A stretch of DNA of 64,000 bases, from assembly GCA_022829145.1 (NCBI GenBank), contig CM040750.1, forward strand, positions 37,970,386 through 38,034,385, in the 5' to 3' direction. The notes under the pieces were generated by a model. The model did no database searches. It saw nothing but the letters and a program-made list of their open reading frames with translations, and was not told the origin of the DNA. Made by a program: the position numbers and the translations under genes. Numbering within the stretch: the first letter of the stretch is position 1; each line of letters begins with the position of its first letter. This document shows, one piece after another, positions 261 through 46,500 of this stretch. Source of the stretch: Albula goreensis (taxonomy: Eukaryota > Chordata > Actinopteri > Albuliformes > Albulidae).

Positions 261-2253
261 TTACGACCCCCCCTCCTTCCCCTCAGGACTGTCTGAGGGG
301 GGCGGGGCCTCCTCTGTGCTGGGGGACTGTGCCCCATCCGGCCCGTCTGACAGAGAGGGGGGGAAGAGAATTAGGGCTTTTATGAGTGACAAGTGAACAT
401 TCATTCAGTCACACATTCATTCAGTCACACATTCACTCAGTCACACATTCACACAATTACACATTCACTTAGTCACACAGTCATACAATTACACATTCAC
501 CCAGTCACACATTCACAGTCATACATTCACTCAGTCACACATTCACTCAGTCACATATTCACTCAGTCACACATTCACACAATTACACATTCACTTAGTC
601 ACACAGTCATACAATTACACATTCACCCAGTCACACATTCACTCAGTCACACATTCACACAGTCACACATTCACTTAGTCACACAGTAGTACATTTATAC
701 AGTCATACATTCACCCAGTCACACATTCACTCAGTCACACATCCACACAATTACACATTCACTTAGTCACACAGTAGTACATTTATACAGTCATACATTC
801 ACCCAGTCACACATTCACTCAGTCACACATTCACACAATTACACATTCACTTAGTCACACAGTCATACATTTATACAGTCACACATTCACAGTCATACAT
901 TCACCCAGTCACACATTCACAGTCATACATTCACTCAGTCACACATTCACACAGTCATACATTCACTCAGTCACACATTCAAACAGTCATACATTCACAC
1001 AGTCACTCAGTCACACATCCACACAATTACACATTCACTTAGTCACACAGTCATACATTTATACAGTCATAAATTCACACAGTCACTCAGTCACACATCC
1101 ACACAATTACACATTCACTTAGTCACACAGTAGTACATTTATACAGTCATACATTCACCCAGTCACACATTCACAGTCATACATTCACTCAGTCACACAG
1201 TCATACATTTATACAGTCATAAATTCACACAGTCACACATTCACACAGTCACTCAGTTCTCTGCTTTTCCTTCTGGATATTCAGTGTAGATGAATGCATG
1301 AATAAATGACTGTGGTTAAGGAAGGCCAAGGTACAGGTGAGTGAAAGATCTGTCGGAGAGTGATGGTATTCACCTGCGAGTGACAGCCCTCAGCTGTGAG
1401 TAACAGGGCTCACCTGTGAGTGACAGCCCTCAACTTTGAGTAACAAGGCTCACCTGTGAGTGACATCCCTCACCTGTGAGTGACAATGTGAGAGCTCACC
1501 TGTGAGTGACATCCCTCACCTGTGAGTGACAGTCTGAGAGTTCACCTGTGAGTGACAGTGTGAGAGCTCACCTGTGAGTGACAGTCTGAGAGCTCACCTA
1601 TGAGTGACAGTGTGAGAGCTCACCTGTGAGTGACACCCCTCACCTGTGAGTGACAGTCTGAGAGCTCACCTATGAGTGACAGTGTGAGAGCTCACCTGTG
1701 AGTGACATCCCTCACCTGTGAGTGACAGTGTGAGAGCTGACCTGTGAGCGACAGTGTGAGAGCTCACCTGTGAGTGACAGTCTGAGAGCTCACCTGTGAG
1801 TGACAGTGTGAGAGCTCACCTGTGAGTGACAGTGTGACAGCTCACCTGTGAGTGACATCCCTCACCTGTGAGTGACAGTGTGAGAGCTCACCTGTGAGTG
1901 AGAGCTCACCTGTGAGTGACATCCCTCACCTGTGAGTGACAGTGTGAGAGCTCACCTGTGAGTGACAGTGTGAGAGCTCACCTGTGAGTGACAGTGTGAG
2001 AGCTGACCTGTGAGTGACAGTGTGAGAGCTCACCTGTAAGTGACAGTGTGAGAGCTCACCTGTGAGTGACAGTGTGAGAGCTGACCTGTGAGTGACAGTG
2101 TGAGAGCTCACCTGTGAGTGACAGCTCGGCCAGTTTGAGTGGCAGATCGGAAGGGCTGACCCCAGCAGGGGACCCCAGGATGTCCGGGAGGGCGTTCCGG
2201 CGGCCGGACCGGCCAGAGGAGGCAAAGTCCAACACCGGCTCCACCTCGGTCAT
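261..2253 (-). CDS. pkib-like: cAMP-dependent protein kinase inhibitor (PKI), complete two-exon coding region
   Basis: Small heat-stable inhibitor that occupies the substrate cleft of the PKA catalytic subunit and carries it out of the nucleus. Coding exons are 2253-2112 (47 codons plus one base, donor CACAG|GTGAGC) and 346-261 (acceptor CTGTCAG, stop TAA at 263-261), joining in phase 1 to 75 residues; PKIA has 76. Visible motifs: Phe10, Arg15, Arg18-Arg19-Asn-Ala21-Leu22 (pseudosubstrate core GRRNAL) and an export signal LPLKLAELSL at 37-46. The second exon encodes an acidic Ser/Pro/Glu tail ending GKEGGS. ATG 2253 has a purine at -3. The acceptor at 2268-2269 lies 14 bases upstream with no in-frame stop between, so an N-terminal extension as in some PKIB isoforms is possible. 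FASS and LPDI resemble PKIB, while the tail AQSPSTEE resembles PKIA, so the subtype is unsettled. The intron is almost wholly tandem repeat. The 5' untranslated exons and the polyA site were not located. Family call is firm; subtype is inferred. Confidence 0.87.
396..1257. repeat. 16-bp-period minisatellite in the PKI intron
   Basis: Imperfect tandem copies of a CACACATTCACTCAGT-like unit, with variant blocks (CAATTACACATTCACTTAGT, CATACATTTATACAGT) that recur in the same order, suggesting a higher-order repeat of roughly 80-130 bp. It occupies the 3' part (gene sense) of the PKI intron, ending about 50 bases before the last coding exon. Open frames through it are artefacts. Confidence 0.95.
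1371..2122 (-). repeat. 26-bp minisatellite made of the PKI exon end plus 5' splice site
   Basis: About 30 copies, mostly spaced 22-26 bases. Read on the minus strand each full unit contains CTGTCACTCACAG followed by GTGAGCTC, which are exactly the last 13 bases of the PKI coding exon and the first 8 bases of its intron. The array runs into the true donor at 2111-2110. Some copies have GTCAGC or GTTACT variants instead of GTGAGC. The many copies of a strong donor consensus next to the real one are seen directly; origin by repeated duplication of the exon/intron junction is inferred. Confidence 0.95.
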
Positions 2254-2269
2254 CTCAGAAACCACACCT

Positions 2270-35203: not shown

Positions 35204-46146
<10,943 letters not shown>

Positions 46147-46155
<9 letters not shown>

Positions 46156-46500
46156 GCACCCCAAAACCCCAATATCCCACTCAGCTAAGAACCACAAAAC
46201 CCCAATATCCCACTCAGCTAAGAACCACAAAACCCCAATATCCCACTCAGCTAAGAACCACAAAACCCCAATATCCCACTCAGCTGAGCACCCCAAAACC
46301 CCAATATCCCACTCAGCTGAGCACCCCAAAACCCCAATATCCCACTCAGCTGAGCACCCCAAAACCCCAATATCCCACTCAGCTGAGCACCCCAAAACCC
46401 CAATATCCCACTCAGCTGAGCACCCCAAAACCCCAGCATCTGAATCAGTTAATACCCAATTCAGCTGAGAACCCCAAAACCCCGATACCTGATTCGGCCG
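46147..46500 (+). repeat. serinc2: 33-bp minisatellite overlapping the serinc2 stop codon
   Basis: About nine copies of CAGCTGAGCACCCCAAAACC + CCAATATCCCACT. The first copy begins in the last codons (TTCAGCTGAGCACC) and includes the stop codon TGA; some copies have AGCTAAGAACCACAAAACC. It forms the start of the 3' untranslated region. A (GT)n tract follows at 46549-46582. Confidence 0.95.

Follow-up and report, generated by a model that had tools for sequence, protein, structure and literature searches.

A minisatellite of 5' splice site copies at the end of a PKI coding exon in Albula goreensis

Tandem copies of splice-site sequence have been described in several settings. Passages of a study of the human polyubiquitin gene UBC describe tandem dual-specific splice sites (DSS) carried by coding units of 228 nt, with splicing shown, and its authors consider DSS expansions less deleterious because they are removable by splicing (PMC10809524). 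Intron gain through tandem duplication of an AGGT-bearing segment is represented by the Rogers model and the ATP2A1 case of Hellsten, by a multi-copy fission yeast case with a 24-bp unit, and by a potato case in which the duplicated segment crosses an intron-exon border (passages of PMC4974935). Human segmental duplications are described as carrying internal tandem repeats at exon-intron borders, with a mean unit of 30 bp and ~4 copies (passages of PMC2812944). Recursive splicing takes place at AG/GT, including at distal exon ends, and its minimal motif is given as YAG followed by GT (passages of PMC10156609). In fish, introns 1 and 3 of the seabream growth hormone gene contain polymorphic minisatellites (passages of PMC3045353). 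Among the titles and abstract openings of the best matches to a full-text literature search, no minisatellite built from copies of a live donor was met.

Here we describe such an array beside a PKI coding exon in a 64,000-nt stretch of Albula goreensis DNA (the window), to which an earlier note on the bare letters had drawn attention. How one splice site is picked out when its neighbours are identical is a classic problem. The PKI array places ~thirty near-identical donors on one exon, and its repeat variants could label the donor used. Feature coordinates are collected in Table 1.

Table 1. Exons, introns, and repeat arrays in the window (a slash marks an exon-intron border)
Feature	Position	Strand	Remarks
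PKI last coding exon	261..346	-	DGPDGAQSPSTEEAPPPSDSPEGKEGGS, stop; joins in phase; teleost homologues have similar tails
PKI intron	347..2111	-	1765 nt: 742 donor array, 852 octamer array, 171 other
Octamer array	406..1257	.	period 8 (CAGTCACA on the plus strand), ~107 copies; TRF; same PKI intron
PKI donor minisatellite	1370..2124	-	32 units, nearly all with PKI exon end and 5' splice site; TRF, fuzzy unit parsing
PKI exon with ATG at 2253	2112..2267	-	last base 2112, donor CACTCACAG/GTGAGCTC; Pfam PKI
Two copies of a 37-bp unit across the SERINC2-like E4 3' splice site	39610..39686	+	TRF
SERINC2-like exon E7	42371..42461	+	ends AACAACCCCA/GTGAGT
Second donor-copy minisatellite	42453..43039	+	53-bp unit, 11.4 copies; TRF; first 7 units aligned
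34-bp minisatellite	45095..45781	+	begins 9 bp into the intron after E9; no GT
33-bp minisatellite	46148..46483	+	from the last SERINC2-like codons; TCAGCTGA (Ser-stop context) recurs, altered in some copies

The PKI gene and its donor array

Two groups of TRF rows, at 1370–1532 (periods 20 and 40) and 1469–2124 (periods 26 and 72), overlap and form a single continuous array. Fuzzy parsing on the minus strand divided it into units of 26 bp (20), 20 bp (10), and 18 bp (one), plus a last unit of undefined length, which the parsing script set to 26 by default. Minisatellites consist of head-to-tail units of ~10–60 bp repeated more than a few times, and the PKI array, with 32 head-to-tail units of 18–26 bp, qualifies as one. 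In this parsing, AG was found at positions -2/-1 in all 32 units and GT at +1/+2 in 30, and the AGGT core of dual-specific splice sites is present in 30/32. The array overlaps the PKI exon by 13 bases (2124–2112). The earlier note had described a minisatellite of about 30 splice-donor copies at 1371..2122, contiguous with the real donor, and both statements are borne out: the array runs those 13 bases into the exon, and PKI results from the exon-most copy of the donor. Its statement that every full unit repeats 13 exonic and 8 intronic bases was too strong, as the exact 21-mer CTGTCACTCACAG/GTGAGCTC occurs only 8 times in the window and 28 times with at most 3 mismatches (100-shuffle means 0.00 and 0.01). 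The spacing of 22–26 bases that it gave is wrong; donors lie 26, 20, or 18 bases apart.

The gene itself looks intact. Its first exon in Table 1, whose start (2267) is inferred from the AG at 2269–2268, joins in phase to the last exon, which is absent from the earlier note, to give a 75-aa protein, which scores 70.6 bits against the Pfam PKI profile (cut-off 25); the array's neighbour is therefore a PKI coding exon, as had been proposed. Among the best 120 of 344 matches, identity to fish proteins reaches 93%; the best match by E-value is from Anguilla at 92%, and two others stand at 93%. Both the inhibitor core and a leucine-rich stretch, a nuclear export signal, are encoded upstream of the donor. 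Tandem repeat accounts for 1594 nt of the 1765-nt intron. The octamer array stops 59 bp from the last exon.

In 9 of the 120 listed homologues, an in-frame insert of 66–165 nt is present at the PKI junction and resembles a retained short intron; this count is biased toward open introns, since those with a stop would never be visible as protein inserts. The inserts make the intron appear old, and on these protein comparisons it looks to have been enlarged rather than newly made. Intron gain places a new intron inside a formerly continuous exon, and, judged from proteins alone, PKI does not show this. The earlier note was apt in calling tandem duplication of AGGT-containing segments a known route to splice sites (passages of PMC4974935), but here an old intron appears to have been enlarged and none made.

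To compare the copies, each of the 30 AGGT donors was joined to the last exon. Normal PKI is obtained from the exon-most donor only (1/30), the next two lead to proteins of 113 and 85 aa with changed tails, and the remaining 27 give a 65-aa product. The donors are therefore not equivalent in outcome, as the phrase "dozens of equivalent donors" in the note implied, although they look alike. With 27 of the 29 extra donors, the retained stretch would measure at least 78 nt, which would suffice for its removal as an intron if the minimal intron length is ~70 nt. In 29 array units, pyrimidines make up a mean share of 0.66 ahead of the AG; the share is 0.50 at 335 AGGT sites outside arrays, 17% of which reach the array mean, and 0.81 at 10 real acceptors.

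Boundary repeats in the neighbouring gene and across the window

To the right of PKI, on the plus strand, lies a SERINC2-like gene with nine exons in phase and a candidate first exon at 35204–35242. Its top matches, for a query with a guessed 13-residue start, are from Anguilla (90%), Megalops (89%), and Conger (88%). Locus tags for PKI and SERINC2 are consecutive or nearly so in several fish (AGOR_G00037260/270, AALO_G00180060/070, and PHYPO_G00172130/140), which suggests that their adjacency is not confined to this window.

The earlier note considered an array of this length unusual at a live exon border. It is at least not a lone case, since E7 of the SERINC2-like gene is followed by a second donor-copy array in the same window. 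This array begins 9 bases inside E7, and its units repeat the exon end, with one base changed, together with the 5' splice site. In the exon 2–10 model, use of any of its 11 extra donor-like sites would end the protein at residue 282, and the full 444 residues of that model are obtained from the exon-most E7 donor only. On the opposite strand, 11 CAGGTRAG cores were observed. Three other repeats are anchored at boundaries without donor copies, namely those after E9, at the end of the coding sequence, and at E4. The E9 array contains no GT and hence no donor copies. For the E4 pair, the frame is kept by the downstream acceptor only (exon from 39668), and use of the upstream acceptor would lead to a stop at residue 133. 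The two E4 copies include 19 exon bases.

The minisatellite load of the window (1–64000) is very high, with 47 merged arrays covering 16.4 kb. Of nine intronic minisatellites, three begin no more than 10 bp from a donor, where random placement would give 0.52 (p = 0.009); among those of at least 300 bp, the figures are three of five against 0.18 expected (p = 0.0003). This comparison covers periods of at least 10 in two genes, was chosen after the pattern had been seen, and excludes the period-8 octamer array, which is not donor-anchored. No excess at acceptors was found for the same nine arrays (one seen, 0.52 expected, p = 0.42).

Origin of the PKI array and competing explanations

The 13 exonic bases of the PKI unit encode LSLT plus one base. 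Exon ends could be parsed in 108 of the 120 listed homologues, with 12 left out; SLTD is found in 31 of the 108, including Anguilla, Paramormyrops, Chanos, and Scleropages, and the other 77 deviate from it by at least one letter. Four of the 120 listed homologues read LSLTG, as ACA GGT would give. The annotated Conger conger PKI (P0115) is without AELSLT before DGP, as if another exon end had been predicted. That the exon end encodes residues of distant teleosts points to the exon as the probable seed of the array, with end codons that are likely older than it, and so favours the earlier proposal of an origin from the PKI exon-intron junction; homologous proteins cannot reveal whether an array is present in their fish. 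Divergence between units, scored as edits against whichever of two unit consensuses lies closer, is greater on the intron side when whole units are compared (Spearman 0.45, p = 0.009, 32 units). With the 14-base core alone, no significant gradient is seen (Spearman 0.22, p = 0.24).

A tandem duplication across the junction of the PKI exon with a short intron would be a plausible first step, and the duplicated border could then have been amplified to a 32-unit minisatellite via slippage or unequal exchange. Such an array may be tolerated because the exon-most copy retains the coding end and the full donor and all later copies are intronic. The unit, ...CACTCACAG/GTGAG..., has an AG/GT core that could in principle be used as donor or acceptor. 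Its AG and GT abut, so a block of retained units would begin with GT and end with AG, and splicing it out would recreate the exact junction, a putative form of self-healing. The E7 array is cut at CA/GTGAGT, and a splice to its AG would leave no new donor behind; the AG and the cut do not coincide there, and self-healing would thus fit PKI only.

Our best reading, which we hold with moderate confidence, is that a duplication straddling the PKI border was amplified and has been tolerated since its exon-side copy is functional; the anatomy of the array, the intact frames, the conservation of the exon end, the effects on frame, and the neighbouring second case are observed, and re-splicing, use of the first donor, and the mutational route are inferred. 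We count in its favour the SLTD residues, the short inserts in homologues, the single PKI-giving donor among 30, the divergence between units, the E7 array, the anchoring of minisatellites at donors, and the pyrimidine share. Against it we count the 77/108 homologues without SLTD, the middling acceptor context, the non-significant core gradient, the lack of an acceptor excess among the intronic minisatellites, the restriction of self-healing to PKI, the boundary anchoring of the E9, E4, and coding-end repeats in which donor copies play no part, and the after-the-fact choice and two-gene scope of the placement comparison. We regard the PKI array as mostly a neutral by-product and not as a device kept for its many donors, and, since a similar array is found in the neighbouring gene, it looks less like a one-off device than like a recurring and probably tolerated accident.

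Copying could also have run in the opposite direction, with a repeat born within the intron whose later spread across the exon end by conversion made the exon a copy of the array. The exact match of all 13 exon bases to the common unit, synonymous positions included, would fit this, and the low-complexity CT/CA text makes such an overrun imaginable. We nevertheless think it unlikely, as the encoded LSLT is found in distant teleosts, and three of these (P0078, P0103, and P0118) apparently have introns of only 66–87 nt at this place. The E7 array speaks in the same direction: its 9 exon bases differ by one from the unit consensus, yet they encode the NNPN found at the E7 end in at least 108 of the 120 listed SERINC2-like homologues, which is what a constrained exon would show if it were the source. 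That a short real repeat was stretched by mis-assembly we consider very improbable; a window so rich in tandem repeats is hard assembly ground, but the PKI units vary at many positions and also in size, as the copies of a simple repeated stretch would not, and a like behaviour is seen in two further rows of boundary repeats.

A functional explanation would make the array a regulatory splice decoy, in which strong donors bind U1 snRNP and divert part of the transcripts to frameshifted or truncated PKI, tuning its dose with array length as the control knob. The sense strand of the array has 23 exact CAGGTRAG cores, 27 of the 29 extra donors lead to the 65-aa product, and in folding prediction a 201-nt piece of RNA from exon and array does better than 200 shuffled versions (z -3.66), all as a decoy might have it. 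Against this, among the 20 full 26-bp units no signal of upkeep by selection was seen when donor and other positions were compared: changes at -3..+6 (6/180 cells) are no rarer than elsewhere (8/340). Across the 32 units as a whole, positions -9..+5 seem conserved, but this was rejected as a sign of upkeep, since it is due to two unit types that share a core and is absent within the 20 units of 26 bp. Predicted openness of the PKI donors ranges from 5e-8 to 9e-3, and the real donor, at 9e-6, ranks 13th of 30, which also counts against the decoy. The candidate idea that RNA structure singles out the real donor is not supported by that rank. The real donor is predicted to be less open than 7 of 8 SERINC2-like donors, and Rfam (at the gathering score) and ARAGORN gave no matches in the window. 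None of the 120 listed homologues matches five array-peptide patterns, although they come from other species. We hold the decoy to be a slim prospect.

Returning to amplification of a tolerated border duplication, the two donor-copy arrays and the three other boundary-anchored repeats in adjacent genes suggest a testable route of intron lengthening, on which duplications straddling a border may be invisible to selection while the exon-side copy survives. A broader generalization, which we offer as a doubtful speculation, would be that minisatellites in this fish lineage nucleate preferentially at coding boundaries and most of all at 5' splice sites, that AG/GT arrays are nearly cost-free through stepwise spliceosomal removal of any number of units with the junction kept unchanged, and that introns could grow outward from the donor.

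Comparison with known systems

The UBC array is the nearest in form, consisting like the PKI array of tandem units that each carry AGGT and are a potential donor or acceptor; the PKI units, unlike those described in passages on UBC, are mostly 20 or 26 bp, intronic, and not multiples of 3, and are known from sequence alone (PMC10809524). Rogers- and Hellsten-type gain shares the AGGT-bearing tandem copies, but as presented in those passages a new intron is made, whereas in PKI an old border appears to be multiplied and the intron to grow (PMC4974935). The border repeats of human segmental duplications are likewise of minisatellite size and alter gene structure; passages on them report ~4 copies, paralogues, and transcript evidence, against ~30 copies in an array read from the genome (PMC2812944). 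The PKI exon end resembles the recursive splicing motif in having YAG followed by GT, although the recursive sites described in passages on them are single and lariat-backed, and the PKI array offers ~thirty predicted candidates in tandem (PMC10156609). Seabream growth hormone provides a further case of fish intronic minisatellites, and the passages on its units, unlike the PKI units, contain no mention of a splice donor (PMC3045353). The PKI array thus looks to share the logic of known systems, but as a long, non-coding, donor-seeded array at an apparently pre-existing border.
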